A DNA stretch of 64,000 nt from Amphibalanus amphitrite (taxonomy: Eukaryota; Arthropoda; Thecostraca; Balanomorpha; Balanidae), in assembly GCF_019059575.1 (NCBI RefSeq), contig NW_024881987.1:124001-188000 (forward strand), read 5' to 3'. Below, one piece after another: positions 14,297 through 60,830 of the stretch. The position numbers were made by a program, and so were the translations under genes. The first letter of the stretch is position 1. Every line of letters starts with the position of its first letter. Below the pieces are notes generated by a model. The model worked only from the letters and a program-made list of their open reading frames with translations, did no database searches and was not told where the DNA came from.

Positions 14297-15662
14297 TTAG
14301 CAGGGAAGGTCAGTGCGGATGATTGCGGCGCTCTGAGAGCAGAACGTCTGCGTGTTGTTCTGGCAGAAGTAGGAGTCGGGTCCCGGGCTGCAGACCCGGT
14401 CCAGACACCCCGCCACTCCGTCGACCACGCGGCAGGTCGGGCCGGCTGGGCCGCAGGTCACGCTGTCGCAGGGGTTCGGGAACGCGGGCGCCGTGCAGCT
14501 GCTGCTGCCGGAGGCGCCGCGGCAGCAGAGCAGGCTCGACGGACAGTCGTTGTCGTAGGTGCACGGCTTCACGCTGTCGGCCGGCACCAGGCTGGCCGCC
14601 GGACAGAAGCCGGGCTTCGGCCGGGCCCTCGGCACGCAGGCCGAGGTGAACTGGCAGCCGGGGAAGGGCGTGCAGGCGGGCTGCGCGTCCGGCCGCCGCT
14701 GGGTCACACAGCGCGTGCCCGGCTGGCCGCAGAGGGCCAGCGCGCACGGGTCGTCGATGCAGACCGGCACCGGATAGCAGTGCTGGGTGGCGCACACCAC
14801 CTCCTGCAGCACACACACCTGGGTGCCGGCGCAGCGGATCGCCTGACAGCTCGGCGGCCTGGACGGCGGCGGCGGCTGCACGTCAACACACGCCGCTAAT
14901 GAAAAACACCACAGGCCCTTCCAGCATTTCCGCACCAGCTTACATTCCTGGCCGGTGGGGCACTTCTTCTTGCAGCTTGTCAAAGGCTCTGAAAAGAAAT
15001 GATAGTAGTGATTGCTTAGAAACACGAGTGAAATGTTTCTGTTCACTGCCAACTTCGCGCCTTATGCTATGCATAAGTGTAAAGCACGACTCCAGATGAT
15101 ATTAGACGTTCAAGCAAACTGCTATAATAGCTGGCTTTTGAAAATTGGAGACTGCTGTGCGTACAAGAGAACGAATAACACTAAAGGCCTATGGGCTTTT
15201 GTGTGCGCTGAACAGCGAAGCGCTGAAGTGGTATATATAATTTGATCGCCGAATTGATCGCAACCTCCTGACCGGATATAGGTGTGCAAAATATCAAGTC
15301 TGGAGACCGTGGTAACTGATAAGGTATAGGTTTGGTTCGAGTTTTGGATAATTTAAGCATAACAGTATTCCACTTTATAAGCCGTATCCGACATCATTTA
15401 GCCGAATACGCACCAAATAGTTGTCAGCTAATCCATCGTAAAAAAAAACACCTTCTACCTATCGCTCACGGCGTAATAAAGTCACGTAAGTACAACTATG
15501 TATATGCAGCAGTGCAACGAGTGCGCTGCATCAGGCATCTCTGTAGTTCGCCGAACAAACTGCAAGCGTTCATTTAGTCAGCTTACCGTGAGCCCGCAGT
15601 TCGGCGCAACAGAGCAACAGTAGCAGAGCCGCTGCGGCAGATCCCGACACAAGACGCCCCAT
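14297..15662 (-). CDS. Secreted cysteine-rich WAP-domain protein
   Basis: Two exons on the minus strand: 15662-15587, then 14988-14297, with GT/AG junctions and consistent phase, giving 255 residues ending in TAA. Exon 1 encodes a textbook signal peptide: MGRLVSG, then an Ala/Leu-rich core, with cleavage predicted after ...AELRA (about residue 24). The mature protein is extremely Cys-rich. An N-terminal segment with CKKKCPTGQEC, a short Pro-rich linker, Cys clusters resembling CxxxxCxxGxxC repeats, then one WAP four-disulfide core at about residues 152-190 (CPAASLVPADS, CTYDNDC, LLCC, SSSC), and a further Cys-rich tail. WAP proteins include protease inhibitors, antimicrobial crustins and shell-matrix perlwapins. 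Here the function is inferred only as an extracellular, disulfide-stabilised protein. The exact repeat family on either side of the WAP core is not recognised. Confidence 0.85.
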
Positions 15663-25254: not shown

Positions 25255-28200
25255 CTATTTCGCTTGCAATGTGGTATGTGCCCTTTCAAGATGATTCCTG
25301 GGTGGAAGATTTAGGGCGTCTTTGGCCAGTTTATCGGCCGCTTCATTGCCTGGGATACCGAGATGTCCTGGTATCCACAGGAGTTTGATATCCTTGCCTT
25401 CTCCTAATTTATACAACTGTTTTTTAATGTTATGTACTAGCCGGTTTGGCTCAGGTCGTCTAGTTTTTATAGCCATAATGGCTGAGGCCGAATCGGTACA
25501 TATCACCGCTTTTTCTATTGTGGATGTTGTTACGTGTTTGAGAGCTGCTAGGATTCCGGAAAGTTCTGCGGTAAATATGGAGTGATGATCATGTACCCTG
25601 TATGATTTCTGATATACCTCCGAATATACAGCGGCCGCTGTATTCGGCCCTTTTTTTGAGCCGTCTGTATAATAAAAGGTATATCCTGTGTGGTTGGCTT
25701 TATACTTGTGGAAGAGTTGCAAACATTCCTCTTTCAATGTATTACGTTTGTTCGACGAGAAAAGGAAAGACGCTCCTTCAAACGGAGGGATGTAGAAAGA
25801 AGAAGCGGGTGGAGTAGGGAGAATCTTTGGGGGAGGAATCTGAAACCGCGCGAAGACCAGTTCTATTCGATACGCAATCACCGGATATTTAGTTTGCGCG
25901 GACGAGAGATGACCTTCCTGATACCGATTAGTGACGATCTTGTGCGTGTTTTGATTAGGGGAAGAACAGGCGCGAGCGAAAAAGCGAAGCAGTTGTAGTT
26001 TACGTCGTTGTCGGAGAAAAGGGATGTTGCATTCCGCGTGAAGAGCTATAATACTTGTTGTTGCGTGAGCTCCCGTAATAATACGGAGAGCGTTGTTCTG
26101 GATAATCTGCAATGACTCAATTTTCTTAGAAGCTATATCATCAAATAGAAAAGCGTTATAGTCCAAGATAGGGCGAATAAGAGAGGTGTATAGCTGGAAA
26201 AGTGTGCGCCTATCTGCGCCCCAATCTTTTCCTGTTATACATTTAAGAATATTTATGCGCCTGGAACATCTGCTTTTAATGTTTTCAAAGTGTTTGTTAA
26301 AGTTAAGTGTTTTATCCAAGGTAATACCAAGGTAGGTAAATTCATTGACATAATTAATAGGTTTGTCTTTGATCTTAAGTGAGGGGGGTTTGTCATGAGC
26401 TAGCCGAGGTGGTACGAAGAGAAGAGCCGCCGTTTTGTTACGGGACAATTTAAGACCCCATTCTTCGCACCATTTAACTATATCATTTAGTATAATTTGG
26501 GCTCTACTATATGCTGCGAGAGGGGTGTCGCGCGTAACCCAAAACGCCACATCGTCAGCATATATAGAGTGTTTTTGGTTAAGCGGGGAGAAATGAAAGA
26601 TATCGTTAATCATGATAAGGAAGAGGGTAGGGGAAATGACACTACCCTGGGGAAGGCCATGATCTTGATTGGTGGTTGAAGAGAGAGTATTACCACATCT
26701 TACGTTAAATGTTCGATTAGTCAAAAAGTTTTTAATAAAGGCAGCCATATGGCCCCTTATGCCCAATCTATGTATTTTTATAAGAAGGCCTTGTTTATTG
26801 ACTCTATCAAATGCGTTTTGAAAATCCAAAAATACTGATAGAGTGAATTCGTTTTCCTGGAATCCCCTTTGTACATCATCTATCAAATGGGCTATAGAAT
26901 CGGACGTGGAGCGTCCAGGTCTAAAGCCATTTTGAAAGGGGGAAAGAAGTTTATTTGTTTCCAGAAAAGCTCTTATTCGCCCATTAATCATACGTTCGAA
27001 GAGTTTGGACGCGCAACTTGTCAAGGATATAGGACGATAACTGGAGGGAGAGGATGGGGGTTTACTGGGTTTAAGGATCGGGATTAGGGTGCTTATTCTC
27101 CAGCTATCTGGAAAGGTGTTGCTAATCCAAAGTTGATTAAAGGAGGAGAGGAGGGTTTCTAGACTAGTGCTAGAGAGGTTACGGAAAAAGGAATAGGCAA
27201 TTTGGTCGGGGCCTACAGAGGTATTGCCACATCGGGAGAGTGCGTGTGTAAGTTCACTAAGTGTGAACGGTTGGTTATATGGTTCAGTGTTAGTGGAGTG
27301 GAATGTAAGGGTGCTTAGTGTATGCGTGTAGAAGTGGTTCTGGTTTTGCGTGTATTGTTGTGCTGAGGATGTGTTGGAATAGTGTGTTGCAAATTGTTCC
27401 GCGACGTCGAGTGGGATGGTATAGTGGATATTGTTAATGTGGAGATGTGGAATTTTGTATGTTCTAGCGCGTTTATTTGAAAAGGCTTTAATTAGCGACC
27501 AGATTTTGGATAGAGGGGTAAATCTATTAAAGGTGTTTGAAAAGGTTTGCCAGCCTTTGGTTTTATTTTCTTTAATTATAATCATAGTTTGATATTTTTG
27601 ACGTCTATATGCTTCCTCGTGTTCCTCGCAGACACATTTTTGAAAGGCTCTGAGAGCGCGCTTCCGAAGAGCAACAGCTCTCTGGCATTCCGTGTTCCAC
27701 CACGGCGCATTTTTAGAATCTCTAGGCGGGCCAGTATGGGGAACATACTGGTGGGCCGCGGTAAGAATGTTGTTAAGGAAATCGTTAATATCATTAGGGG
27801 GAGTGTTGTTAATATGCTCATCTATATGTATTTGAAATGCTGACCAATCCGCTTTGTTAAAATTCCAGCGAGGCAAAAAGTTAAAGTTAGTTTGCCCTGA
27901 AGGGACGTTCAGTACATAATGAATAGGAAAGTGGTCGCTGAAGAGGGAGTCGTCTCCAACATTTTGAGTGAATAGTGTCGCGGTGTTTATGTCTGTGAAG
28001 GCCAGATCTATGACGGAGTGTGTGAGCTGGCCATTGTACGCTGCTGTTCTTGTTGGCGTGCGATTGTTGATACAAATTAGATCAAGTGCTTCAGTTACGT
28101 TATATATTTGTGTTCCGCGAGTGGTGTTTGAATTACAGCCCCAAGAAAGGTGATGGGCGTTAAAGTCTCCCATGATGAGGCACGGGGGTAGTATATCTGA

Positions 28201-28588
28201 GAGGAGTTTTGTTAGATGGGGGGGATGGAAAGGGAGGGAAGGGGAAAGGTAAATAGATATAATAGTTATGTCTTGGTGTGCAAGTTTAACCTTAGCACCA
28301 ACAGCATTTAGCTGGGTGTTTAGTTTAATTTGGTGATGGAGTAGTTTATTTGAAATATAAAGTGCCGAGCCGCCTCGGCGCGGAGTTACGTTAACGTTAT
28401 TTGTATACAGGGAATATTGGGGAATGTTAAAGTTGTAGTTGACAGCGTCCGAATCGATAAATTTTGTTTCTTGGACGGCGGCTACTAACGGTTTTTTTAT
28501 TTAAGATGTAGTTCTTGAATTCACCCCAATGGGATACAAGTGAAGCCGTATTCCATTGGAGGATGAATTCGTTAGAAAATTGGGCCAT
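25255..28588 (-). CDS. Retrotransposon ORF2: endonuclease, reverse transcriptase, RNase H (one frameshift)
   Basis: Copies retrotransposon RNA into DNA at a nicked target. Translation starts at ATG 28588 with FILQWNTASLVSHW, the usual opening of APE-type endonuclease ORF2s. A run of seven T on the plus strand (28492-28498) shifts the frame by one base; removing one restores an uninterrupted protein. The main frame then runs 972 residues from MGDFNAHHLSWG. Endonuclease: GDFNAHH and SDHFPI. RT: GPDQIAYSF, YRPISLTS, QNGFRPGRST, FLDFQNAFDRV, LPQGSVISPTLF, catalytic YADDVAFW. RNase H: YTDGSKKG, FTAELSGIL, CTDSASAI, IPGHLGIPGNEAADKLA. It stops about 20 residues after RNase H, with no C-terminal Cys/His cluster. 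The open frame elsewhere suggests a young copy. Confidence 0.93.
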
Positions 28589-28621: not shown

Positions 28622-30028
28622 TTACTGAGTGGCTTCGCGGTTGCTCTGCGCTGCCGTTACCAGGCGCGCTAGCGAGCGTGTGGTGACACCTTCGGGCGGA
28701 GTGGGCGGGGCAGAGTGAGAGCGCCGTGGCCTTTTCTTTGCGGTGAGATTTTGTCGCACTGTGCGATTCAGATCATTCTCCAACGAGGAGTCTGATGACG
28801 GAGTCTGATTTATGTTGGGCGTCGGCAATGTCACCAGCACTGACTCGGATTCAGCGGTCGGCGGCGGCGCGGTCTTAGTGACAGTGGCAGGCTCCACGAT
28901 CGCTTCGGGGGCCTCGGGCTCGTTTGGCGCGAACTCCGTTTCGACCGACTCGGCTCGGCTCGGCCACCCGGTCTCGGCTGCCAGGGAGAAGATCCCCTCA
29001 AGGTCACTAGGGCTGGGTGGGACCGAAGTGCCGTTCTCAGATAGGCGACCATCGTAGCCTGGGGCGGGGCGAAGATCCGGTGAAGCCGGCGCGGTGTCAC
29101 GGTTCAGAGGGCGTCGGGCCGGGAGGGGACGGCGGGCCTGGGGGGCCACGGCTGTCGACACATCCTGGACACGGGGCCACACCTGTGCAGGGGGCGGAGC
29201 TTCGCTCCCAGCCCTTTCCTCATGATAGGCCTCGAGCGGCAGCGGGGGCGGCGGGATGGGGAGGGTGCCGCGCGCGTTCAACTGGTCCTTTTTTTGCACC
29301 CAGACCGGGCACGACCTGCTCCACGCGGGGTGGGGGCCCTCGCAGTAGGCGCATAACGGCTCTGGTGCCTCGCAGTTGTCTGGGGTGTGTCCAGTTCCTG
29401 CACAGCGGAGGCAGTTGGGCGTCTTAGATTTGCATGTGCTCTGCAGATGGCCGTATCGGCCGCAGTTGCGGCACAGTCTGGGGTTCGTCTCCCACGCCCT
29501 TACATCAAAAACCTCATAACCGGCATAGATGTACACTGGGCACGTGAGCCCCACAAAGCGCAGCTTGAGGAGCGGATTGGGACGCGATGTTTTCGACCGG
29601 AGGCGGACAACCTCGGCGACCTTTTGCGATCGAAGTTCGGTACGCAGCTCCTCCACATCCATGTACGCGAGCTGCGGCGCGTATATCGTGCCAGAGGTGG
29701 TGTTCATTTTCGTGGCTGGGGTCACGGTCACGGGAGTTCCGAGGAACTGATGGAGTTGAAGAGCTAAGGCGGCTTGGGCCTTGCTCAGCACCCGGATAAG
29801 GACATTGCCGGAACGAACGACCTTGGCGAAGCGGACTTTCCCGATGAGAGTATCCATCTCCCGGCGGAGCGCGAAAGGGGACACGCGGCTGAAGGTGCCA
29901 TCCTGAGGCGTCATCAACAGGTAACACTCCCCGACGGGGACCTCGTCCAAGAGGGGGTTGGGGGAGGGGGAGGGGGGGAAGAGGGGGTAGACCAGGGGGC
30001 GGGCGGGCCGGGATAGCGGGGGTGCCAT
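28622..30028 (-). CDS. Retrotransposon ORF1: gag-like zinc-knuckle protein
   Basis: 468 residues, presumed RNA-binding partner of ORF2 in the ribonucleoprotein. A proline-rich N terminus precedes a folded region of about 150 residues, then three tandem CCHC-type knuckles at about residues 186-240 (CRNCGRYGHLQSTC, CLRCAGTGHTPDNC, CAYCEGPHPAWSRSC). The tail is Pro/Ala/Glu-rich and low complexity. The reading frame is intact. ORF2 begins 33 bases after its stop. Confidence 0.9.
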   Translation of the reverse strand: MAPPLSRPARPLVYPLFPPSPSPNPLLDEVPVGECYLLMTPQDGTFSRVSPFALRREMDTLIGKVRFAKVVRSGNVLIRVLSKAQAALALQLHQFLGTPVTVTPATKMNTTSGTIYAPQLAYMDVEELRTELRSQKVAEVVRLRSKTSRPNPLLKLRFVGLTCPVYIYAGYEVFDVRAWETNPRLCRNCGRYGHLQSTCKSKTPNCLRCAGTGHTPDNCEAPEPLCAYCEGPHPAWSRSCPVWVQKKDQLNARGTLPIPPPPLPLEAYHEERAGSEAPPPAQVWPRVQDVSTAVAPQARRPLPARRPLNRDTAPASPDLRPAPGYDGRLSENGTSVPPSPSDLEGIFSLAAETGWPSRAESVETEFAPNEPEAPEAIVEPATVTKTAPPPTAESESVLVTLPTPNINQTPSSDSSLENDLNRTVRQNLTAKKRPRRSHSAPPTPPEGVTTRSLARLVTAAQSNREATQ

Positions 30029-30275
30029 AAGGGCGGGTGGTAGACCGGAAATACCTACGACGGAGAGTCGAGACGCCGAAGATGAAATACGGCAAGATGG
30101 CGGGTTATCAAGATGTCAACCGTCGACGGGGCCGAGTGCAGACGAGCGAGGAATGCTTCAAGATCGATGGAAGAAACCAGACAATGGCTCAAAGAATTTA
30201 GAAATTTTTAAGATCAGCAAAATGAGTATTGAAAGCAATTAAAGCACAACACCTATCACTACAATCACAAAAATC

Positions 30276-30431
30276 ATGTCCGTGAAGTTAGCGTCAGCAA
30301 CAGCAACGAATACAGCGTCGGATTCAGAATCGCTTAAAAAACTCATATTACGTCAATTGGGGGACGGGGAGCAAGAATATGACCTTTATTTGGCCCTAGC
30401 TCTTACCCCTTACCCCTTAATCGGCCCTTAA
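30276..30431 (+). CDS. Short ORF in left terminus of foldback element (putative)
   Basis: ATG is the first three bases of the element. A 51-codon ORF starts MSVKLASATATNTASD and runs through the unique terminus into the first repeat, ending at TAA. The mirror copy in the right terminus encodes almost the same peptide. It may be a remnant of an ancestral gene end or chance; no family recognised. Confidence 0.25.
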   Translation: MSVKLASATATNTASDSESLKKLILRQLGDGEQEYDLYLALALTPYPLIGP

Positions 30432-32290
30432 AGGAAGGGACGCGTCAAAAGTGCCTCAAGGGTTCGTCTGATCGCCAAAATAAGGGTCGCACTCGATTCC
30501 CCGGGTCAATATCTAGCCGCAGCCTCGGGTTCCAGATGTGTGCAACTTACCCCTTACCCCTTAATCGGCCCTTAAAGGAAGGGGCGCGTCAAAAGTGCCT
30601 CAAGGGTTTGTCTGATCGCCAAAATAAGGGTCGCAATCGATTCCCCGGGTCAATATCTAGCCGCAGCCTCGGGTTCCAGATGTGTGCAACTTACCCCTTA
30701 CCCCTTAATCGGCCCTTAAAGGAAGGGGCGCGTCAAAAGTGCCTCAAGGGTTCGTCTGATCGCCAAAATAAGGGTCGCAATCGATTCCCCGGGTCAATAT
30801 CTAGCCGCAGCCTCGGGTTCCAGATGTGTGCAACTTACCCCTTACCCCTTAATCGGCCCTTAAAGGAAGGGGCGCGTCAAAAGTGCCTCAAGGATTCGTC
30901 TTATCGCCCAAATAAGGGTCGCAATCGATTCCTCGGGTCAATATCTAGCCGCAGTCTCGGGTTCCAGATGTGTGCAACTTACCCCTTACCCCTTAATCGG
31001 CCCTTAAAGGAAGGGGCGCGTCAAAAGTGCCTCAAGGGTTCGTCTGATCGCCAAAATAAGGGTCGCAATCGATTCCTCGGGTCAATATCTAGCCGCAGCA
31101 TCGGGTTCCAGATGTGTGCAACTTACCCCTTACCCCTCAATCGGCCCTTAAAGGAAGGGGCGCGTCAAAAGTGCCTCAAGGGTTCGTCTGATCGCCAAAA
31201 TAAGGATCGCAATCGATTCCTCGGGTCAATATCTAGCCGCAGCCTCGGGTTCCAGATGTGTGCAACTTACCCCTTACCCCTTAATCGGCTTTTAAAGGAA
31301 GGGGCGCGTCAAAAGTGCCTCAAGGGTTCGTCTGATCGCCAAAATAAGGGTCGCAATCGATTCCTCGGGTCAATATCTAGCCGCAGCCTCGGGTTCCAGA
31401 TGTGTGCAACTTACCCCTTACCCCTTAATCGGCCCTTAAAGGAAGGGGCGCGTCAAAAGTGCCTCAAGGGTTCGTCTGATCGCCAAAATAAGGATCACAA
31501 TCGATTCCTCGGGTCAATATCTAGCCGCAGCCTCGGGTTCCAGATGTGTGCAACTTACCCCTTACCCCTTAATCGGCCCTTAAAGGAAGGGGCGCGTCAA
31601 AAGTGCCTCAAGGGTTCGTCTGATCGCCAAAATAAGGGTCGCAATCGATTCCTCGGGTCAATATCTAGCCGCAGCCTCGGATTCCAGATGTGTGCAACTT
31701 ACCCCTTACCCCTTAATCGGCCCTTAAAGGAAGGGGCGCGTCAAAAGTGCCTCAAGAGTTCGTCTGATCGCCAAAATAAGGGTCGCAATCGATTCCTCGG
31801 GTCAATATCTAGCCGCAGCCTCGGGTTCGAGATGTGTGTAACTTACCCCTTACCCCTTAATCGGCCCTTAAAGGAAGGGGCGCGTCAAAAGTGCCTCAAG
31901 GGTTCGTCTGATCGCCAAAATAAGGGTCGCAATCGATTCCTCGGGTCAATATCTAGCCGCAGCCTCGGGTTCCAGATGTGTGCAACTTACCCCTTACCCC
32001 TTAATCGGCCCTTAAAGGAAGGGGCGCGTCAAAAGTGCCTCAAGGGTTCGTCTGATCGCCAAAATAAGGATCGCAATCGATTCCTCGGGTCAATATCTAG
32101 CCGCAGCCTCGGGTTCCAAATGTGTGCAACTTACCCCTTACCCCTTAATCGGCTTTTAAAGGAAGGGGCGCGTCAAAAGTGCCTCAAGGGTTCGTCTGAT
32201 CGCCAAAATAAGGGTCGCAATCGATTCCTCGGGTCAATATCTAGCCGCAGCCTCGGGTTCCAGATGTGTGCAACTTACCCCTTAACCCTT
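30410..32290 (+). repeat. Left arm: about 13 x 144-bp tandem repeat
   Basis: Each 144-bp unit contains CTTACCCCTTACCCCTTAAT, CCTTAAAGGAAGGGGCGCGT and GGGTCAATATCTAGCCGCAG. Units differ by a few bases. 144 is a multiple of three and one frame lacks stops, giving a 597-codon ORF of 48-residue repeats; nothing suggests it is translated. Confidence 0.95.
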
Positions 32291-32296
32291 ACCCCA

Positions 32297-35200
32297 CATC
32301 TGGAACCCGAGGCTGCGGCTAGATATTGACCCGAGGAATCGATTGCGACCCTTATTTTGGCGATCAGACGAACCCTTGAGGCACTTTTGACGCGCCCCTT
32401 CATTTAAGGGCCGATTAAGGGGTAAGGGAAAAGTTGCACACATCTGGAACCCAAGGGTGCGGCTAGATATTGACCCGAGGAATCAATTGCGACCCTTATT
32501 TTGGCGATCAGACGAACCCTTGAGGCACTTTTGACGCGCCCCTTCCTTTAATGGCCGATTAAGGGATAAGGGGTAAGTTGCACACATCTGGAACCCGAAG
32601 CTGCGGCTAGATATTGACCCGAGGAATCGATTGCGACCCTTATTTTGGCGATCAGACGAACCCTTGGGGCACTTTTGACGCGCCCCTTCCTTTAAGGGCC
32701 GATTAAGGGGTAAGGGGTAAGTTGAACACATCTGGAACCCGAGGCTGCGGCTAGATATTGACCCGAGGAATCGATTGCGACCCTTATTTTGGCGATCAGA
32801 CGAACCCTTGAGGCACTTTTGACGCGCCCCTTCCTTTAAGGGCCGATTAAGGGGTAAGGGGTAAGTTGCACACATCTGGAACCCGAAGCTGCGGCTAGAT
32901 ATTGACCCGAGGAATCGATTGCGACCCTTATTTTGGCGATCAGACGAACCCTTGAGGCACTTTTGACGCGCCCCTTCCTTTAAGGGCCGATTAAGGGGTA
33001 AGGGGTAAGTTGCACACATCTGGAACCCGAGGCTGCGGCTAGATATTGACCCGAGGAATCGATTGCGACCCTTATTTTGGCGATCAGACGAACCCTTGAG
33101 GCACTTTTGACGCGCCCCTTCCTTTAAGGGCCGATTAAGGGGTAAGGGTTAAGTTGCACACATCTGGAACCCGAGGCTGCGGCTAGATATTGACCCGGGG
33201 AATCGATTGCGACCCTTATTTTGGCGATCAGACGAATCCTTGAGGCACTTTTGACGCGCCCCTTCCTTTAAGGGCCGATTAAGGGGTAAGGGGTAAGTTG
33301 CACACATCTGGAACCCGAGGCTGCGGCTAGATATTGACCCGAGGAATCGATTGCGACCCTTATTTTGGCGATCAGACGAACCCTTGAGGCACTTTTGACG
33401 CGCCCCTTCCTTTAAGGGCCGATTAAGGGGTAAAGGGTAAGTTGCACACATCTGGAACCCGAGGCTGAGGCTAGATATTGACCCGGGGAATCAATTGCGA
33501 CCCTTATTTTGGCGATCAGACGAACCCTTGAGGCACTTTTGACGCGCCCCTTCCTTTAAGGGCCGATTAAGGGGTAAGGGGTAAGTTGCACACATCTGGA
33601 ACCCGAGGCTGCGGCTAGATATTGACCCGAGGAATCGATTGCGACCCTTATTTTGGCGATCAGACGAACCCTTGAGGCACTTTTGACGCGCCCCTTCCTT
33701 TAAGGGCCGATTAAGGGGTAAGGGGTAAGTTGCACACATCTGGAACCCGAGGCTGCGGCGAGATATTGACCCGAGGAATCGATTGCGACCCTTATTTTGG
33801 CGATCAGACGAACCCTTGAGGCACTTTTGACGCGCCCCTTCCTTTAAGGGCCGATTAAGGGGTAAGGGGTAAGTTGCACACATCTGGAACCCGAGGCTGC
33901 GGCTAGATATTGACCCGAGGAATCGACTGCGACCCTTATTTTGGCGATCAGACGAACCCTTGAGGCACTTTTGACGCGCCCCTTCCTTTAAGGGCCGATT
34001 AAGGGGTAAGGGGTAAGTTGCACACATCTGGAACCCGAGGCTGCGGCTAGATATTGACCCGAGGAATCGATTGCGACCCTTATTTTGGCGATCAGACGAA
34101 CCCTTGAGGCACTTTTGACGCGCCCCTTCCTTTAAGGGCCGATTAAGGGGTAAGGGGTAAGTTGCACACATCTGGAACCCGAGGCTGCGGCTAGATATTG
34201 ACCCGAGGAATCGATTGCGACCCTTATTTTGGCGATCAGACGAACCCTTGAGGCACTTTTGACGCGCCCCTTCCTTTAAGGGCCGATTAAGGGGTAAGGG
34301 GTAAGTTGCACACATCTGGAACCCGGGGCTGCGGCTAGATATTGACCCGAGGAATCGATTGCGACCCTTATTTTGGCGATCAGACGAACCCTTGAGGCAC
34401 TTTTGACGCGCCCCTTCCTTTAAGGGCCGATTAAGGGGTAAGGGGTAAGTTGCACACATCTGGAACCCGAGGCTGCGGCTAGATATTGACCCGGGGAATC
34501 AATTGCGACCCTTATTTTGGCGATCAGACGAACCCTTGAGGCACTTTTGACGCGCCCCTTCCTTTAAGGGCCGATTAAGGGGTAAGGGGTAAGTTGCACA
34601 CATCTGGAACCCGAGGCTGCGGCTAGATATTGACCCGAGGAATCGATTGCGACCCTTATTTTGGCGATCAGACGAACCCTTGAGGCACTTTTGACGCGCC
34701 CCTTCCTTTAAGGGCCGATTAAGGGGTAAGGGGTAAGTTGCACACATCTGGAACCCGAGGCTGCGGCGAGATATTGACCCGAGAAATCGATTGCGACCCT
34801 TATTTTGGCGATCTGACGAACCCTTGAGGCACTTTTGACGCGCCCCTTCCTTTAAGGGCCGATTAAGGGGTAAGGGGTAAGTTGCACACATCTGGAACCC
34901 GAGGCTGCGGCTAGATATTGACCCGAGGAATCGATTGCGACCCTTATTTTGGCGATCAGACGAACCCTTGAGGCACTTTTGACGCGCCCCTTCCTTTAAG
35001 GGCCGATTAAGGGGTAAGGGGTAAGTTGCACACATCTGGAACCCGAGGCTGCGGCTAGATATTGACCCGAGGAATCGATTGCGACCCTTATTTTGGCGAT
35101 CAGACGAACCCTTGAGGCACTTTTGACGCGCCCCTTCCTTTAAGGGCCGATTAAGGGGTAAGGGGTAAGTTGCACACATCTGGAACCCGGGGCTGCGGCT

Positions 35201-38200
35201 AGATATTGACCCGAGGAATCGATTGCGACCCTTATTTTGGCGATCAGACGAACCCTTGAGGCACTTTTGACGCGCCCCTTCCTTTAAGGGCCGATTAAGG
35301 GGTAAGGGGTAAGTTGCACACATCTGGAACCCGAGGCTGCGGCTAGATATTGACCCGGGGAATCAATTGCGACCCTTATTTTGGCGATCAGACGAACCCT
35401 TGAGGCACTTTTGACGCGCCCCTTCCTTTAACCCGCGCCCTGGTGGGGTCTGTTTATAACGCGACCTGGTGGGGGGGGGGGGCTATTTTTTGCCCCCCCT
35501 CGTATCTCCGAAACTACTGGACGGATCCGCAAAATTCAAACGGCGTTCGAAAGGCCTGTCAAATTTGTCGAGGAAAACCAAATTTCATTGACCTCGGGGT
35601 CACCGATGACGTCACAGGTCAGGTCAAAGATGAAATGTTTCACCGTTCACGGGTCTTCTAGGGAATGCGCTATAACACCGAGGAAAACGCATTTTGTCGA
35701 GAATCAGCGATAGGGCGTCAGTTGCCTAGTAGATATATTACTATTAGAGGTCACTGACAATACCAGGTCAGGTCACAGGTCAGGTCACCAAGGGTCACAG
35801 GTCAGGTCACATGAGCCCAACTTTACTAAGGTTGTGTGATGCATGTTTTATGGCCAATTTTTCATTTCCAACTCAATGGTATTGGTTATAAGACTATCAG
35901 GTACGGCTTAGGTCACTTTCTGGTGAAGTTCAGGTCAAGGTCAGGTCAAGGTCAGGCCAAAAAAGGTCAAATTTTAAAGTTGATATTTTTGCATAAAATG
36001 GGTATTGATTCGATGCAGCTCGTCACGGGGAGTCTAATGGTGGTCTTTGTTTTGCGCTACGGGGTCTAGAATTGCTAAAAATTGAGTTTGAAAATTTGAC
36101 GTCATCAATTTTGAACAGTTTTTTCGCTATAACTTCGCCAAAAAAAGAGGTATCGATCTCAAATTTGGTATGTGGATGGAAGGCGGTAAGGACTATCACA
36201 TATATTCCGGTTTTTGCGAAATTCAAAAAACTTCTTGGATTTTTCGATTATTATATGCAAAAAAATTATTTTTTGATTTTTGGGGGTCAAAATCCAAAAA
36301 TTTCAAAAATCCGAGATAGCAGTTTTGTAGCCCTGTTGATTCTACAGCTTTTATGTCTTTATCATTTTTCTGTATTTGCAAAGCTATAGGCCTGACAGCT
36401 CTTCCCGCGAAACCCTTTTTTGGGTCGAAAACGGCAGAACATGACCTCACTCTGACGTCATTTCCGGCCAACCTATCATAGCCTTTGGAAAAATTTTTGG
36501 TCACAATGTGTAAAATTGATGTCCGGGAGGGTACTGAAAGTTTGGTGACGATCGGCGCAGCGGTTCTGGAGATATATCAAAAAGTCTGGAGGGGGGGCAA
36601 AAAATAGCCCCCCCCACCAGGGCGCGGGCTAAGGGCCGATTAAGGGGTAAGGGGTAAGTTGCACACATCTGGAACCCGAGGCTGCGGCTAGATATTGACC
36701 CGAGGAATCGATTGCGACCCTTATTTTGGCGATCAGACGAACCCTTGAGGCACTTTTGACGCGCCCCTTCCTTTAAGGGCCGATTAAGGGGTAAGGGGTA
36801 AGTTGCACACATCTGGAACCCGAGGCTGCGGCGAGATATTGACCCGAGGAATCGATTGCGACCCTTATTTTGGCGATCTGACGAACCCTTGAGGCACTTT
36901 TGACGCGCCCCTTCCTTTAAGGGCCGATTAAGGGGTAAGGGGTAAGTTGCACACATCTGGAACCCGAGGCTGCGGCTAGATATTGACCCGAGGAATCGAT
37001 TGCGACCCTTATTTTGGCGATCAGACGAACCCTTGAGGCACTTTTGACGCACCCCTTCCTTTAAGGGCCGATTAAGGGGTAAGGGGTAAGTTGCACACAT
37101 CTGGAACCCGAGGCTGCGGCTAGATATTGACCCGAGGAATCGATTGCGACCCTTATTTTGGCGATCAGACGAACCCTTGAGGCACTTTTGACGCGCCCCT
37201 TCCTTTAAGGGCCGATTAAGGGGTAAGGGGTAAGTTGCACACATCGGGAACCCGAGGCTGCGGCTAGATATTGACCCGGGGAATCGATTGCGACCCTTAT
37301 TTTGGCGATCAGACGAATCCTTGAGGCACTTTTGACGACGCCCCTTCCTTTAAGGGCCGATTAAGGGGTAAGGGGTAAGTTGCACACATCTGGAACCCAA
37401 GGCTGCGGCTAGATATTGACCCGAGGAATCGATTGCGACCCTTATTTTGGCGATCAGACGAACCCTTGAGGCACTTTTGACGCGCCCCTTCCTTTAAGGG
37501 CCGATTAAGGGGTAAGCGTTAAGTTGCACACATCTGGAACCCGAGGCTGCGGCTAGATATTGACCCGGGGAATCGATTGCGACCCTTATTTTGGCGATCA
37601 GACGAATCCTTGAGGCACTTTTGACGCGCGCCTTCCTTTAAGGGCCGATTAAGGGGTAAGGGGTAAGTTGCACACATCTGGAACCCGAGGCTGCGGCTAG
37701 ATATTGACCCGCGGAATCGATTGCGACCCTTATTTTGGCGATCAGACGAACCCTTGAGGCACTTTTGACGCGCCCCTTCCTTTAAGGGCCGATTAAGGGG
37801 TAAAGGGTAAGTTGCACACATCTGGAACCCGAGGCTGCGGCTAGATATTGACCCGAGGAATCGATTGCGACCCTTATTTTGGCGATCAGACGAACCCTTG
37901 AGACACTTTTGACGCGCCCCTTCCTTTAAGGGCCGATTAAGGGGTAAGGGGTAAGTTGCACACATCTGGAACCCGAGGCTGCGGCTAGATATTGACCCGA
38001 GGAATCGATTGCGACCCTTATTTTGGCGATCAGACGAACCCTTGAGGCACTTTTGACGCGCCCCTTCCTTTAAGGGCCGATTAAGGGGTAAGGGGTAAGT
38101 TGCACACATCTGGAACCAGAGGCTGCGGCTAGATATTGACCCGAGGAATCGATTGCGACCCTTATTTTGGCGATCAGACGAACCCTTGAGGCACTTTTGA

Positions 38201-41200
38201 CGCGCCCCTTCCTTTAAGGGCCGATTAAGGGGTAAGGGGTAAGTTGCACACATTTGGAACCCGAGGCTGCGGCTAGATATTGACCCGGGGAATCGATTGC
38301 GACCCTTATTTTGGCGATCAGACGAACCCTTGAGGCACTTTTGACGCGCCCCTTCCTTTAAGGGCCGATTAAGGGGTAAGGGGTAAGTTGCACACGTCTG
38401 GAACCCGAGGCTGCGGCTAGATATTGACCCGAGGAATCGATTGCGACCCTTATTTTGGCGATCTGACGAACCCTTGAGGCACTTTTGACGCGCCCCTTCC
38501 TTTAAGGGCCGATTAAGGGGTAAGGGGTAAGTTGCACACATCTGGAACCCGAGGCTGCGGCTAGATATTGACCCGAGGAATCGATTGCGACCCTTATTTT
38601 GGCGATCAGACGAACCCTTCAGGCACTTTTGACGCGCCCCTTCCTTTAAGGGCCGATTAAGGGGTAAGGGGTAAGTCGCACACATTTGGAACCCGAGGCT
38701 GCGGCTAGATATTGACCCGGGGAATCGATTGCGACCCTTATTTTGGCGATCAGACGAACCCTTGAGGCACTTTTGACGCGCCCCTTCCTTTAAGGGCCGA
38801 TTAAAGGGTAAGGGGTAAGTTGCACACATCTGGAACCCGAGGCTGCGGCTAGATATTGACCCGAGGAATCGATTGCGACCCTTATTTTGGCGATCAGACG
38901 AACCCTTGAGGCACTTTTGACGCGCCCCTTCCTTTAAGGGCCGATTAAGGGGTAAGGGGTAAGTTGCACACATCTGGAACCCGAGGCTGCGGCTAGATAT
39001 TGACCCGAGGAATCGATTGCGACCCTTATTTTGGCGATCTGACGAACCCTTGAGGCACTTTTGACGCGCCCCTTCCTTTAAGGGCCGATTAAGGGGTAAG
39101 GGGTAAGTTGCACACATCTGGAACCCGAGGCTGCGGCTAGATATTGACCCGAGGAATCGATTGCGACCCTTATTTTGGCGATCAGACGAACCCTTGAGGC
39201 ACTTTTGACGCGCCCCCTCCTTTAAGGGCCGATTAAGGGGTAAGGGGTAAGTTGCACACATCTGGAACCCGAGGCTGCGGCTAGATATTGACCCGAGGAA
39301 TCGATTGCGACCCTTATTTTGGCGATCTGACGAACCCTTGAGGCACTTTTGACGCGCCCCTTCCTTTAAGGGCCGATTAAGGGGTAAGGGGTAAGTTGCA
39401 CACATCTGGAACCCGAGGCTGCGGCTAGATATTGACCCGAGGAATCGATTGCGACCCTTATTTTGGCGATCAGACGAACCCTTGAGGCACTTTTGACGCG
39501 CCCCTTCCTTTAAGGGCCGATTAAGGGGTAAGGGGTAAGTTGCACACATCTGGAACCCGAGGCTGCGGCTAGATATTGACCCGAGGAATCGATTGCGACC
39601 CTTATTTTGGCGATCAGACGAACCCTTGAGGCACTTTTGACGCGCCCCTTCCTTTAAGGGCCGATTAAGGGGTAAGGGGTAAGTTGCACACATCTGGAAC
39701 CCGAGGCTGCGGCTAGATATTGACCCGAGGAATCGATTGCGACCCTTATTTTGGCGATCAGACGAACCCTTGAGGCACTTTTGACGCGCCCCTTCCTTTA
39801 AGGGCCGATTAAGGGGTAAGGGGTAAGTTGCACACATCTGGAACCCGGGACTGCGGCTAGATATTGACCCGAGGAATCGATTGCGACCCTTATTTTGGCG
39901 ATCAGACGAACCCTTGAGGCACTTTTGACGCGCCCCTTCCTTTAAGGGCCGATTAAGGGGTAAGGGGTAAGTTGCACACATCTGGAACCCGAGGCTGCGG
40001 CTAGATATTGACCCGGGGAATCAATTGCGACCCTTATTTTGGCGATCAGACGAACCCTTGAGGCACTTTTGACGCGCCCCTTCCTTTAAGGGCCGATTAA
40101 GGGGTAAGGGGTAAGTTGCACACATCTGGAACCCGAGGCTGCGGCTAGATATTGACCCGAGGAATCGATTGCGACCCTTATTTTGGCGATCAGACGAACC
40201 CTTGAGGCACTTTTGACGCGCCCCTTCCTTTAAGGGCCGATTAAGGGGTAAGGGGTAAGTTGCACACATCTGGAACCCGAGGCTGCGGCGAGATATTGAC
40301 CCGAGGAATCGATTGCGACCCTTATTTTGGCGATCTGACGAACCCTTGAGGCACTTTTGACGCGCCCCTTCCTTTAAGGGCCGATTAAGGGGTAAGGGGT
40401 AAGTTGCACACATCTGGAACCCGAGGCTGCGGCTAGATATTGACCCGAGGAATCGATTGCGACCCTTATTTTGGCGATCAGACGAACCCTTGAGGCACTT
40501 TTGACGCGCCCCTTCCTTTAAGGGCCGATTAAGGGGTAAGGGGTAAGTTGCACACATCTGGAACCCGAGGCTGCGGCTAGATATTGACCCGAGGAATCGA
40601 TTGCGACCCTTATTTTGGCGATCAGACGAACCCTTGAGGCACTTTTGACGCGCCCCTTCCTTTAAGGGCCGATTAAGGGGTAAGGGGTAAGTTGCACACA
40701 TCTGGAACCCGAGGCTGCGGCTAGATATTGACCCGGGGAATCGATTGCGACCCTTATTTTGGCGATCAGACGAATCCTTGAGGCACTTTTGACGCGCCCC
40801 TTCCTTTAAGGGCCGAGTAAGGGGTAAGGGGTAAGTTGCACACATCTGGAACCCGAGGCTGCGGCTAGATATTGATCCGAGGAATCGATTGCGACCCTTA
40901 TTTTGGCGATCAGACGAACCCTTGAGGCACTTTTGACGCGCCCCTTCCTTTAAGGGCCGATTAAGGGGTAAGGGGTAAGTTGCACACATCTGGAACCCGA
41001 GGCTGCGGCTAGATATTGACCCGAGGAATCGATTGCGACCCTTATTTTGGCGATCAGACGAACCCTTGAGGCACTTTTGACGCGCCCCTTCCTTTAAGGG
41101 CCGATTAAGGGGTAAGGGGTAAAATGCACACATCTGGAACCCGGGGCTGCGGCTAGATATTGACCCGAGGAATCGATTGCGACCCTTATTTTGGCGATCA

Positions 41201-43700
41201 GACGAACCCTTGAGGCACTTTTGACGCGCCCCTTCCTTTAAGGGCCGATTAAGGGGTAAGGGGTAAGTTGCACACATCTGGAACCCGAGGCTGCGGCTAG
41301 ATATTGACCCGGGGAATCAATTGCGACCCTTATTTTGGCGATCAGACGAACCCTTGAGGCACTTTTGACGCGCCCCTTCCTTTAAGGGCCGATTAAGGGG
41401 TAAGGGGTAAGTTGCACACATCTGGAACCCGAGGCTGCGGCTAGATATTGACCCGAGGAATCGATTGCGACCCTTATTTTGGCGATCAGACGAACCCTTG
41501 AGGCACTTTTGACGCGCCCCTTCCTTTAAGGGCCGATTAAGGGGTAAGGGGTAAGTTGCACACATCTGGAACCCGAGGCTGCGGCGAGATATTGACCCGA
41601 GGAATCGATTGCGACCCTTATTTTGGCGATCTGACGAACCCTTGAGGCACTTTTGACGCGCCCCTTCCTTTAAGGGCCGATTAAGGGGTAAGGGGTAAGT
41701 TGCACACATCTGGAACCCGAGGCTGCGGCTAGATATTGACCCGAGGAATCGATTGCGACCCTTATTTTGGCGATCAGACGAACCCTTGAGGCACTTTTGA
41801 CGCACCCCTTCCTTTAAGGGCCGATTAAGGGGTAAGGGGTAAGTTGCACACATCTGGAACCCGAGGCTCCGGCTAGATATTGACCCGAGGAATCGATTGC
41901 GACCCTTATTTTGGCGATCAGACGAACCCTTGAGGCACTTTTGACGCGCCCCTTCCTTTAAGGGCCGATTAAGGGGTAAGGGGTAAGTTGCACACATCTG
42001 GAACCCGAGGCTGCGGCTAGATATTGACCCGGGGAATCGATTGCGACCCTTATTTTGGCGATCAGACGAATCCTTGAGGCACTTTTGACGACGCCCCTTC
42101 CTTTAAGGGCCGATTAAGGGGTAAGGGGTAAGTTGCACACATCTGGAACCCAAGGCTGCGGCTAGATATTGACCCGAGGAATCGATTGCGACCCTTATTT
42201 TGGCGATCAGACGAACCCTTGAGGCACTTTTGACGCGCCCCTTCCTTTAAGGGCCGATTAAGGGGTAAGCGTTAAGTTGCACACATCTGGAACCCGAGGC
42301 TGCGGCTAGATATTGACCCGGGGAATCGATTGCGACCCTTATTTTGGCGATCAGACGAATCCTTGAGGCACTTTTGACGCGCCCCTTCCTTTAAGGGCCG
42401 ATTAAGGGGTAAGGGGTAAGTTGCACACATCTGGAACCCGAGGCTGCGGCTAGATATTGACCCGCGGAATCGATTGCGACCCTTATTTTGGCGATCAGAC
42501 GAACCCTTGAGGCACTTTTGACGCGCCCCTTCCTTTAAGGGCCGATTAAGGGGTAAAGGGTAAGTTGCACACATCTGGAACCCAAGCTGCGGCTAGATAT
42601 TGACCCGAGGAATCGATTGCGACCCTTATTTTGGCGATCAGACGAACCCTTGAGGCACTTTTGACGCGCCCCTTCCTTTAAGGGCCGATTAAGGGGTAAG
42701 GGGTAAGTTGCACACATCTGGAACCCGAGGCTGCGGCTAGATATTGACCCGAGGAATCGATTGCGACCCTTATTTTGGCGATCAGACGAACCCTTGAGGC
42801 ACTTTTGACGCGCCCCTTCCTTTAAGGGCCGATTAAGGGGTAAGGGGTAAGTTGCACACATTTGGAACCCGAGGCTGCGGCTAGATATTGACCCGGGGAA
42901 TCGATTGCGACCCTTATTTTGGCGATCAGACGAACCCTTGAGGCACTTTTGACGCGCCCCTTCCTTTAAGGGCCGATTAAGGGGTAAGGGGTAAGTTGCA
43001 CACATCTGGAACCCGAGGCTGCGGCTAGATATTGACCCGAGGAATCGATTGCGACCCTTATTTTGGCGATCAGACGAACCCTTGAGGCACTTTTGACGCG
43101 CCCCTTCCTTTAAGGGCCGGGGTAAGGGGTAAGTTGCACACATCTGGAACCCGAGGCTGCGGCTAGATATTGACCCGAGGAATCGATTGCGACCCTTATT
43201 TTGGCGATCTGACGAACCCTTGAGGCACTTTTGACGCGCCCCTTCCTTTAAGGGCCGATTAAGGGGTAAGGGGTAAGTTGCACACATCTGGAACCCGAGG
43301 CTGCGGCTAGATATTGACCCGAGGAATCGATTGCGACCCTTATTTTGGCGATCAGACGAACCCTTGAGGCACTTTTGACGCGCCCCTTCCTTTAAGGGCC
43401 GATTAAGGGGTAAGGGGTAAGTTGCACACATCTGGAACCCGAGGCTGCGGCTAGATATTGACCCGAGGAATCGATTGCGACCCTTATTTTGGCGATCTGA
43501 CGAACCCTTGAGGCACTTTTGACGCGCCCCTTCCTTTAAGGGCCGATTAAGGGGTAAGGGGTAAGTTGCACACATCTGGAACCCGAGGCTGCGGCTAGAT
43601 ATTGACCCGAGGAATCGATTGCGACCCTTATTTTGGCGATCAGACGAACCCTTGAGGCACTTTTGACGGGCCCCTTCCTTTAAGGGCCGATTAAGGGGTA
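32297..43700 (-). repeat. Right arm: about 71 x 144-bp tandem repeat, inverted
   Basis: Same unit as the left arm in opposite orientation, interrupted once by a 1197-bp MITE (35432-36628). Variant units form irregular higher-order periods: the TGA-creating variant AATCAATTGCG recurs at 33489, 34497, 35361, 40019 and 41315, which are 7, 6 and 9 units apart within its clusters. Blocks around 35360-38300 and 41315-43050 carry the same succession of rare variants (GGCGAGATATTG, GACGCACCCC, GACGACGCCCC, CCCAAGGCTG, GGTAAGCGTTAAG) and are a duplication offset by about 33 units. Confidence 0.93.
35432..36628. mobile_element. piggyBac-like MITE (TTAA family) inserted in satellite array
   Basis: 1197 bp starting CCCGCGCCCTGGTGGGG and ending CCACCAGGGCGCGGG, with TTAA before it (35428-35431) and CTAA after it. 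The array's uninterrupted units read CCTTTAAGGG at the same place, an empty TTAA site. It is loaded with AGGTCA hexamers, for example CAGGTCAGGTCACAGGTCAG near 35764. Confidence 0.9.
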
Positions 43701-43844
43701 AGGGGTAAGAGCTAGGGCCAAATAAAGGTCATACTCTTGCTCCCCGTCCCCGCATTGACCTAATATGAGTTTTTTAAGCGATTCTGAATCCGACGCTGTA
43801 TTCGTTGCTGTTGCTGACGCTAACTTCACGGACATACAAAAATC

Positions 43845-46396: not shown

Positions 46397-52397
<6,001 letters not shown>

Positions 52398-56281: not shown

Positions 56282-58437
56282 TGTTACACTTTACCTGTAA
56301 ACATGTCATAGATTGATGAAAGAGGAAGACCAAAGCTGTTCCAGGCCATGTAAATATTAAATAATATCAAAATAAGTGTCAATTTATTTCCCATAAAATC
56401 TCGTTAAAATCAGAGATATTCTGAATAAGAAAACAACAGCTGATTGTGGCCCTGGTAGTGGCGACATGGCTCGTTGCAGTTAAAGGGACACTCCCACCTT
56501 AACATTAGTTTTGAGTTGAGATCAGGGGCGGCGCCACGGGTTTTCGATAGGGGGGGACGGGGACCGAAAATCGAAAATCCCAAAAGTAGATACTGATCGT
56601 GTATGCAAAAAAAAAAAAACGAGGCACGTAACGCCGCGAAACTTGGCAAGGCCCAAAACACATCGAATGGTGCATCCCGTTTCCAAACTTATCCTAGGAC
56701 ACCTAAGATCGATCACCTTTTCAAGCATCCTTGCCTCTAAATCAAAATTTGCAGTCTTGCCAACTCAAAGCTGGTTTCCTACAAGCTGCGAATTGCTTAG
56801 GTATGAGTAGCAGTGCCAGCTATTCTTACGTTTCGTACTTTCAAATTTTCGATCTTACGTCTGGTCAGCTTCAGGGCTTCACCATCATATAGTCATGGAG
56901 GAAAAGTGGGAATGTCTTCTGCTCTGACAAGTGCGCCAAAACTGCAATATAATTTCAGAATCATGACATCACCACCTGATCCATATGCAACGGGCAGGGT
57001 GCAGCTAATGGCTAGCCGTCAGTGGTCATGTCATCGGTGGTCACTCAAAAGGCCATGCTAGGTCATGGAAGGTCACCAGCCGTTATTTGATCACACTTTC
57101 TGATGGATTTTACTTGCCAAGAGCTTCGCGGGAAAAACGAGCGCATGCACCGTTGAAAAATTGAGTGAAAGGGTCTCAGGTCCGGCGACCTCTGCAGGTG
57201 AAATGCCCCAGGGTAGGATTCCGGTGCTTGTTGATTAACTTCGTCAAAAATGGCAGTAGAGCTGTGATGTCGGCACCATTGTGTTCGTCATGATCGAGCT
57301 GGCACGACCTGCATCGTTCTCATATTCACCCTCCAATCGTAACAACTACAGCAGGGATTGGCAAATGGCGGGGCACCCCCTTTGGGAGGTAATGAAGGTC
57401 TCTGGAAACGTCATCCCACATCTCTTTAGCATTAGTGGCTCTCCTTATGGAACAGGTTTCTTGACTGGTCTGTTTCACCCCAGAATTCAAAGACTAGTCA
57501 AGGTACATAAAACCGAGCGCACCACAGTGAGCACAATTTGATAAGCTGGTGTATCTCAATTTTCATGTAGAACCTTTCACGTATCACGGACCTAAAACCC
57601 TTTCGTGCACTCATGCAAAAGCAACTGCCATGTTTCAACAGCTGGTAATGGCATTTTCACAGCCGCTGACGTAAGAAGGGGAGGGATGGGGGGCTCGATT
57701 AGACCCCCAGCCGTTCGACCGCCGACCGAACTTAGTTATGCAAAAAAAAAAAACGAGTGCTATCGAACCCCTTGACGAGAGGGAGCCGATGCTATATCCA
57801 ATTATAAGGTCTTGGGCTACTGCGTGCTTTTTTGGTCCTGCCTGTGATCTATCCGAACACTTCTCCCCACAAGTGCTGGGGTTAAATGGCATAGATTTCA
57901 AATGGTTCCTGTGGTAGAACTGCCATGCTTGAATTTGACTAATTAGGAATGGAAAATTTTCATATAGTAACGGAAATCTATGGAATTTCAGTGAACTTGG
58001 TTTTATCGGCAATGGGGTCTGGCAGTGGGGTGGGGAGGTAATAGGTAATAACCCTGCCTGGCGCCCCAAAAAGGGGGCACGATCCCCGAGGCCCTGCCGA
58101 TCACCTTATAACTCAGTCGGTGACACACCAGGGAAATAAGCTAAAATTAGAGCGCTCTATTTATTGCTCCCGCTACTTCACCGTCTCCCATAGGGTCCTG
58201 TGTTGAGCTGGTGTCGAGGCTCTAAAAATGACGCCGATTTTTGCACCCTTCTCACGAAAACCGCTCGGACCGCCTGGAAACTAATTGTTCCGCTCTAAAA
58301 ATTTCAGGATCGACGGGAAAATGAATGAGGAAAAGATTGGTCCTGAAATAATTCTGAACTCCCTGTAGAACATATCGAAATATGGCTGCAAACTAGGAGC
58401 ATGTCAAAATCGACAAAACAATACAAATAAACTTACC
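56282..58437. other. Intergenic region with eroded transposon pieces
   Basis: At 56479 a MITE left end (AAAGGGACACTCCCACCTT) matches the element at 3005, without a clear right end. CAGGGGCGGCGCCACGGG at 56523 resembles a hAT-type terminus. About 56990-57720 looks like an old TTAA-family copy (GCTAGGTCATGGAAGGTCAC, GAGCTTCGCGGGAAAAACGA). The words TATGCAAAAAAAAAAAACGA occur twice (56602, 57736). No gene supported. Confidence 0.45.
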
Positions 58438-58999
58438 ACGTACATAAAGTTGCATTATATTCACATTCAGATTCGCGTGCACATTCGCGGACCCCTCAGA
58501 TTTGGCTCAAAATTGCACAGCCTATAGATTTTGAGCTCCTGATTGCGAAAATCATGTTTTTATTTCACGCCGTCAAGTGGTTCTCAAAATATTCACACTT
58601 GTATTACTGCTAACATATTCTGGAACGTAACCCTTATTGGAAAAATCGGACCCCACCAAACTTCTCAAAAACTCCTGAGATGAGGTAAACATAAGCGCTG
58701 ATCCCAAAAAATAATTTTTACTTAACGCCGTCCCACAGTTTTCTCAGAATGAGCATCTAAAGTTCAAGGTCGTTCAAGGTCAAGTGCCTTTTCTCACCCT
58801 TTGGCGCTATTTGACACGTGACAGCTTTATATTTATGATGGACATTCGCACTACCTCCTACAAAAACAATATACCCAAATCCAAGGGGCGTTGCTGTACC
58901 AAAATGCAAAAAAAGCGTCAAAACCTCTTTCATTCAGCTAACAGTTAAATACAAGGGATATTCGAATTTGCCACACATAAAGCAAATTTGTCGGACCTG

Positions 59000-60060: not shown

Positions 60061-60830
60061 CAATTTGAATGTGCATGAATGCGTATATCTGGAAAAGTTC
60101 TTGACGGCGTTCAAAGGGAGTACCATTTTCATGTTCAGGAGGTCAAGGAGCATCATTCCTGAGATTTTGAACGAAATCGGAGGGGTCCGCCGAAAGTGCA
60201 TATGCAACACCTAGGCAATTTGAATGTGCATGGATGCGTATATCTGGAAAAGTTCTTGACGGCGTTCAAAGGGAGTACCATTTTCATGTTCAGGAGGTCA
60301 AGGAGCATCATTCCTGAGATTTTGAACGAAATCGGAGGGGTCCGCCGAACGTGCATATACTACACCTATGCAATTTGAATGTGCATGGATGCGTATATCT
60401 GGAAAAATTCTTGACGGCGTTCAAAGGGAGTACCATTTTCATGTTCAGGAGGTCAAGGAGCATCATTCCTGAGATTTTCAACGAAATCGGAGGGGTCCGC
60501 CGAACGTGCATATGCAACACCTAGGCAATTTGAATGTGCATGGATGCGTATATCTGGAAAAGTTCTTGACGGCGTTCAAAGGGAGTACCATTTTCATGTT
60601 CAGGAGGTCAAGGAACATCATTCCTGAGATTTTGAACGAAATCGGAGGGATCCGCAGAACGTGCATATGCAATACCTAGGCAATTTGAATGTGCATGGAT
60701 GCGTACATCTGGAAAAGTTCTTGACGGCGTTCAAAGGGAGTACCATTTTCATGTTCAGGAGGTCAAGGAGCATCATCCCTGAGATTTTGAACGATATCGG
60801 AGGGGTCCGGCCAGGTCCGACAAATTTGCT
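60061..60830 (-). repeat. 155-bp tandem repeats, right arm, inverted
   Basis: About five units of the same repeat in opposite orientation. Rare variants (TGTAGTATATGC at 59602 and GCATATACTACA at 60352) occupy mirror positions in the two arms, so the arms arose by copying one another after the array formed. Confidence 0.93.

Follow-up and report, generated by a model that had tools for sequence, protein, structure and literature searches.

Foldback elements built of inverted 144-bp tandem arrays in Amphibalanus amphitrite: a dispersed family and the joins at its centres

In a window of Amphibalanus amphitrite contig NW_024881987.1 (assembly GCF_019059575.1; "the window" is the whole stretch of 64,000 nucleotides that was analysed), an array of 144-bp units meets an inverted array of the same unit head to head, with mirror-image termini on the outside. 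Is this locus a satellite or a single insertion of a mobile element, and, in the latter case, how does its centre arise? The locus is very probably a foldback DNA transposon of the non-autonomous kind, a single insertion belonging to a family with more than a hundred copies dispersed over the genome searched (807.55 Mb in 2644 contigs). The spacer-less centre is the new part of the finding; foldback elements themselves are already known.

The window element and its insertion site

The boundaries given in the original prediction proved exact, the element occupying 30276–43835 with ACAAAAATC on both sides. Its parts are as follows.

30276–43835, no strand: whole foldback element, 13560 bp
30267–30275, no strand: left target-site duplication, 9 bp, ACAAAAATC, present as a single copy at unoccupied LINE sites
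30276–30401, plus strand: left terminus, 126 bp, starting ATGTCCGTGAAGTTAGC; its first 23 bp have 374 exact genomic copies
30402–32291, plus strand: array of 13.1 units of 144 bp
32292–32294, no strand: centre join of 3 bases, arrays head to head
32295–43709, minus strand: inverted array of about 71 units of 144 bp
35432–36629, no strand: nested non-coding insert in the minus array, 1198 bp, with inverted ends CCCGCGCCCTGGTGGGG and a 3-bp TAA duplication
43710–43835, minus strand: right terminus, 126 bp, inverted
43836–43844, no strand: right target-site duplication, 9 bp, ACAAAAATC

The plus array consists of 13 whole units (30402–32273) and an 18-bp partial unit. At the centre it ends at unit position 18, and after the three bases the minus array begins at position 139; this join differs from those of all other 34 elements read. 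The arms are highly unequal, 13.1 versus about 71 units, and 194 of the outermost 200 bp are identical between the two ends. The terminus does not derive from the 144-bp unit by alignment (score 23 either way, with a shuffle median of 22). One frame of the array is open in both unit types described below; at 48 codons, it was judged unremarkable as a protein repeat. The tRNA scan (bacterial code) and the Rfam scan of the window gave no matches.

The predicted foldback architecture, termini plus inverted 144-bp arrays, is seen both in the window and in other copies. The tract had also been described as made almost entirely of satellite. This holds for the inverted arrays, but it is not quite true that the element is only satellite, because the minus array is broken by the 1198-bp insert. 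The latter is a separate later insertion, outside the foldback plan, and its longest stop-free frame has 126 codons. PIF/Harbinger-like elements have terminal inverted repeats (TIRs) and a 3-bp TWA target duplication; the insert has TAA on both sides and inverted ends, with no transposase. Nested non-coding inserts with CCCGCGCC ends occur here (35432–36629), in L013 (877–2061) and in L036 (3105–4305), the last two being 83% alike (L and C numbers are our handles for loci and contigs). Such inserts are perhaps Harbinger-like miniature inverted-repeat transposable elements, the name being tentative.

The foldback element is inserted beside the 5' end of a LINE-like element (LINE, long interspersed nuclear element), which forms its left flank:

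25255–28500, minus strand: LINE-like second open reading frame (ORF2), with endonuclease, reverse transcriptase and RNase H
28622–30115, minus strand: LINE-like open frame of 497 codons with no Pfam match, named ORF1 by position only

In the empty-site search, the two flanks of the window element were joined and matched against the genome. There were seven matches: the window's own two flanks, two to the right flank only, and three LINE relatives (92, 87 and 86% identical), in which the left flank continues across a single 9-mer and for another 14 bp, with no element. By this alignment the three relatives are unoccupied sites, though the stretch past the junction is short. The locus had been taken for one insertion event, and the unoccupied site in these relatives agrees with that.

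Copies of the family and their centres

The exact 23-bp terminus has 374 matches in the genome and its reversed control none; as 374 versus 0 in 807.55 Mb, the matches are not due to chance. The worry that no other copy might carry these termini can hence be dropped. Positions were obtained for 351 termini, the search pattern being split by the preceding base, and 23 had no listed position. The 351 mapped ends form 137 facing pairs with a median length of 6086 bp, and 77 ends stay unpaired. All but one of the pairs measure between 455 bp and 18.3 kb; the exception is 39.9 kb long. The window element, originally called very large, is large but ranks 16th among the 137 pairs. This number is not that of independent insertions, because some pairs duplicate one locus or belong to a composite lineage. 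Most of the pairs were not read through; what follows rests on 35 whole elements (the window element included, L010 left out) and on both ends of seven longer ones.

The other copies follow the same plan of terminus, array, inverted array and inverted terminus, with inserts breaking some arms or termini; L025 alternates plus and minus twice. The original prediction expected other genomic copies with 9-bp duplications, and there are many: the 9-bp flanks are identical in 32 of the 42 elements with both ends read. All 32 flanks differ from one another, and no strong base preference is seen among them.

The units fall into at least two types, one (A) with about 98% similarity to the window unit and one (B) with about 88%; intermediate units occur in the composite lineage and in L022. 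A type-B array, that of L028, likewise has a period of 144. In group A, the two arms of an element are more alike than arms of different elements in the terminal 126 bp (0.992 versus 0.975) and slightly so in the first unit, while in the second and third units they are not clearly closer. In group B the arms of one element are somewhat more alike throughout, gaps disturbing this comparison, and gene conversion is not claimed.

Several copies have particular structures. The composite lineage (L020, L021, L031, L039, L041) has inverted outer flanks GGTAAAGCTGGCGTC...GTAAGTATT, and the flanks of L022 are different but similar. Twenty-one pairs under 2.6 kb have T before both ends, which suggests a numerous composite lineage carried in a larger repeat. 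L037 and L038 (C111:789381-803532) are of different unit types and stand back to back with 0 bases between them and no duplication, perhaps a product of recombination between copies. L009 and L010 on contig C16 form a sequence-identical inverted pair with identical right flanks and non-identical left flanks, either a recent inverted duplication or an assembly fault; L010, as the inverted duplicate of L009, was dropped from the counts. In L045 (201–474) the left-end terminus plus 22 bp of the unit is duplicated in tandem.

The centre data comprise 36 junction rows from the 35 elements, two equal rows of L025 being counted once. The composite lineage has one centre in all five copies read (L020, L021, L031, L041, and L039 as the mirror image). 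The remaining 30 elements, which include L022, L037 and L038, have 30 different joins by unit position or filler: 21 with 1–44 inserted bases, eight with an overlap of 1–2 bp, and one blunt. Among the 435 pairs of joins, compared directly or mirrored, three have unit positions no more than 3 bases apart, where roughly two are expected by chance, and their fillers differ. Six of the 15 fillers of at least 5 bp match the unit over a longer stretch than any of 500 random strings. The joins fit error-prone end joining with locally copied filler, a process that they only partly prove. Misassembly is less likely for 12 of the 30 elements, since these are under 5 kb.

One sibling trio, L034, L042 and L057, occupies three sites with different 9-bp duplications. 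One arm is identical in all three over the first 640–720 bp. In the other arm, L042l and L057r differ by 11 mismatches over 24 units (3456 bp), units being missing in blocks, and L034l and L057r by six mismatches over 13 units; the same best-fit alignment of three unrelated arm pairs yields 1.2–1.6 mismatches per unit. The centres of the trio are at unit positions 39/99 (an overlap of 1 bp), 117/64 (10 bases inserted) and 82/136 (again an overlap of 1 bp). Because the arms are near-identical but the centres differ, centres and unit numbers appear, from these alignments, to change faster than point mutations accumulate.

The window contains a second foldback element, of a family with a 155-bp unit:

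58438–61372, no strand: second foldback element, 2935 bp, with 564-bp arms and inverted arrays of the 155-bp unit, centre between 60060 and 60061
58429–58437, no strand: left 9-bp duplication, AAACTTACC
61373–61381, no strand: right 9-bp duplication, AAACTTACC

This copy was read together with six more, picked among the shorter pairs (3.3–6.2 kb). All seven have perfect 9-bp duplications at different sites, and in all seven the arrays meet at one unit position. The diagnostic bases point to one ancestral centre, carried in both orientations, with L062 changed locally beside it: 52–56 of 60 positions are symmetric in six copies and 35 of 60 in L062. Between copies, the arms have a mean similarity of 96%. 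Since this family keeps one centre in seven of seven copies, a changing centre is not a necessary outcome of the spacer-less architecture. At C773:142059 and C1528:19198, a terminus of the 144-bp family lies 532 bp before one of the 155-bp family, suggesting a copied chimeric or nested element.

As to independent satellite arrays of the 144-bp unit, an exact unit 18-mer has 6108 genomic matches. From the elements alone 6426 are predicted, with 0.80 matches per 144 bp in the 35 elements read, an interior length averaged over 41 pairs, and 187 elements; this is an estimate, in which collapsed heterochromatin cannot be judged. Given 6108 observed versus 6426 predicted, independent arrays are not indicated in the assembly. 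The suggestion that the transposon seeds satellite arrays is unsupported there, as the units are accounted for by elements. Foldback elements feeding satellites are already published for Tetris, which gave independent satellite arrays, whereas none are indicated for the 144-bp family (PMC4079207).

Movement of the elements and origin of the centres

We tentatively favour the reading, without being confident of it, that the centre of the 144-bp family is not inherited, each successful transposition breaking the spacer-less palindrome and rejoining it anew, so that a private repair scar would be left. A transposase supplied from elsewhere (in trans), most likely of the Mutator or Mutator-like element (MULE) kind, would recognise the termini and move the element by cut and paste. 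The arms would gain or lose whole units between related copies, as seen in the one sibling trio. Around the time of movement the centre would be broken and rejoined by error-prone end joining, often leaving filler bases. Each insertion would then carry its own centre, with the termini and outer units inherited.

A target duplication of 8–10 bp together with long TIRs is a trait of the Mutator superfamily (MULE, Phantom subclass) and is found in the family; a MULE transposase, which at least one copy should encode between the same termini, was not found in the copies read. We infer mobilisation of Mutator type from the 9-bp duplication and the likeness to Tm1 and to mosquito MULEs. The prediction that the element has no transposase holds in all copies read: none has a coding insert, and the ten inserts examined in arms or termini are small and non-coding.

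Four MULE loci were also read. One, L059, is of the Phantom type (FLYWCH plus MULE), and the other three have MULE frames with SWIM or ZSWIM-like domains by Pfam. As candidates for the autonomous partner they were rejected, having no family termini or units beyond short matches at chance level. The FLYWCH and MULE frame of L059 (C511:219800-226000) has 378 codons and lies in a repeat that is at least 5.7 kb long and has two nearly identical relatives.

A number of observations weigh against the family being a mobilised one of this kind, or against its centres being remade at movement. The 111 MULE-domain matches, obtained by scoring 150 of 204 candidates, all lie more than 49 kb from the 351 mapped ends. 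The search was for the MULE domain only, and intron-split genes and copies with changed termini could be missed. For this reason the family is not filed in the Mutator superfamily, and the autonomous copy with a transposase between the same termini that the original prediction proposed to look for was found neither near these ends nor among the 35 elements read through. Over the 6.2 kb of the Phantom-type locus, neither the terminus nor the unit occurs. Ten of the 42 elements have no perfect 9-bp duplication: the five composite-lineage copies and L022 (inverted flanks), the two halves of the back-to-back pair, L030 (three mismatches) and L045/L046 (one mismatch). The array lengths of long copies could hold assembly errors. 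The overlaps of 1–2 bp at the joins are not above chance (28% with 1 bp and 10% with 2 bp under the null), and for nine of the 15 fillers the match to the unit is not clearly better than that of random strings in which all bases are equally frequent. In the sibling trio, the deeper parts of the initially identical arm fit less well, with 0.6–0.9 mismatches per unit overall (the three comparisons gave 8 mismatches over 13 units, 13 over 15 and 8 over 10). The facing pairs at C388:387430-394955 and C804:296787-304312 are of equal length, 7526 bp, with different flanking bases, which could be chance or could mean siblings with one centre. Finally, the evidence that the change of centre accompanies movement, rather than occurring later in place, is indirect.

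It is quite possible that the centres are remade in place after insertion, with no link to transposition: the palindrome would extrude or form a hairpin at replication, be cut, and be rejoined off-centre. Inverted arrays with no spacer are what palindrome fragility would be expected to act on, and the joins are asymmetric, with inserted bases in 21 of 30. At the same time, the 155-bp family keeps its centre in seven of seven copies, although the arms of different copies show the divergence given above. The composite lineage, with shared outer flanks and seemingly carried in another repeat, likewise has its one centre in five of five copies, which are short ones; and the C346 and C427 elements, with nearly the same left flank, agree in the one feature compared, their length. 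Somewhat doubtful is a further explanation, by which each copy is an independent internal deletion of a longer autonomous ancestor through interrupted gap repair, with the centre as the deletion join. It differs from remaking at transposition mainly in the timing of the loss of the middle. Classical internal deletions keep the outer parts, lose the inner ones and have filler at the join, all of which is seen here, and the arms of siblings are colinear from the outside in. Yet a middle domain is present in none of the 35 elements of the 144-bp family (at most 44 bp between the arrays) and in none of the seven of the other, and the inserts in the arms are, again, small and non-coding.

The transposase itself might not be of the Mutator kind. 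A P-type or Merlin-type enzyme, for example, could mobilise the family, its foldback form being convergent as in Galileo, which is foldback-like and belongs to the P superfamily (PMC3573991); no MULE gene is linked to the termini, as this explanation would have it. We consider it unlikely, as a 9-bp duplication with no evident site preference (32 sites) is usual for relatives of Mutator (Tm1, PMC3169594; Muta1, with a target duplication of 8–9 bp, PMC5225508). Far less credible still is the idea that faulty assembly produced the inverted halves of what is an ordinary satellite locus. Misassembly is a known risk with tandem arrays, and one element does occur twice, sequence-identical and inverted, on contig C16. 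But the plan recurs in copies of 455–1867 bp, which have centres of their own; this makes an artefact improbable, and the identical flanks of 32 out of 42 elements, the unoccupied site in the LINE relatives and the unit count explained by elements all speak against it.

Relation to known systems

The closest known systems are Tetris, Tm1 and FB. In the FB (FB-NOF) elements of Drosophila, as in the 144-bp family, the inverted repeats consist of tandem units and the duplication is of 9 bp; they differ in having short units and, when complete, the NOF gene in the middle, and the likeness is one of description. Tetris of Drosophila virilis has TIRs with a variable number of approximately 220-bp tandem units, is non-autonomous with no transposase found, and makes 8–10-bp duplications, compared with 9 bp here (PMC4079207). 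It is set apart, by its description, by an outer flanking domain of up to 866 bp, an inner TIR domain, a middle domain and TIRs of up to 1,735 bp, whereas arms of the 144-bp family reach several kb; three of its copies are structurally complete, versus 137 facing pairs here (PMC4079207). No inner TIR or middle domain of the Tetris type was found in the 144-bp family, since the arrays of all 35 elements read are separated by 44 bp or less. Tm1 of root-knot nematodes shares the composite TIRs, the variable tandem units and the 9-bp duplications, 45 of its 53 elements having a duplication of 8–10 bp (PMC3169594). However, its units are about 14 bp, its elements, from under 0.5 to about 0.9 kb, contain a stretch between the TIRs, and a Phantom-type MULE transposase is present in one copy of M. 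incognita (PMC3169594). The F subfamily of Galileo resembles the family in long TIRs varying by approximately 210-bp tandem units, with unequal numbers on the left and right, and differs in its P-superfamily transposase, in having at most two or three units per arm, and in the spacer and coding region of nearly complete copies (PMC3573991).

The features of the foldback class, inverted repeats of tandem units and dispersed copies at unrelated sites with target duplications, are all present in the 144-bp family. To our knowledge, Helentrons have no inverted arrays or target duplication of the foldback kind. The satellite-carrying Helentrons of oysters are similar in being dispersed mobile elements with satellite-like tandem units (PMC7492417). 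Neither copy-specific centres nor such a 144-bp family is mentioned in the accessible parts of the literature on foldback satellite arrays and palindrome end joining, in which subscription journals are thinly covered.

The rest of the window holds pieces of host genes:

480–1946, plus strand: glycosyl hydrolase 35 (beta-galactosidase)
14297–15061, minus strand: WAP domain
48291–49082, plus strand: DUF747 membrane protein

The (TTAGG)5 repeat has 11,646 exact, overlapping matches in the assembly, a count consistent with an arthropod but no proof of one.

Foldback elements have been known for decades. The growth of their arms, the keeping of mirror symmetry and the events at the centre have been hard to study, the described copies being few or short. 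In the A. amphitrite genome, 137 facing pairs of ends of one family can be set beside a second family whose centre behaves in the opposite way. There is also a warning here, in that what an assembly shows as a "satellite locus" may be one insertion of a transposon. The joins at the centres could serve as a catalogue of germ-line repair of very long palindromes and, if the reading favoured above is true, the 144-bp and 155-bp families would be a natural paired experiment on palindrome repair.

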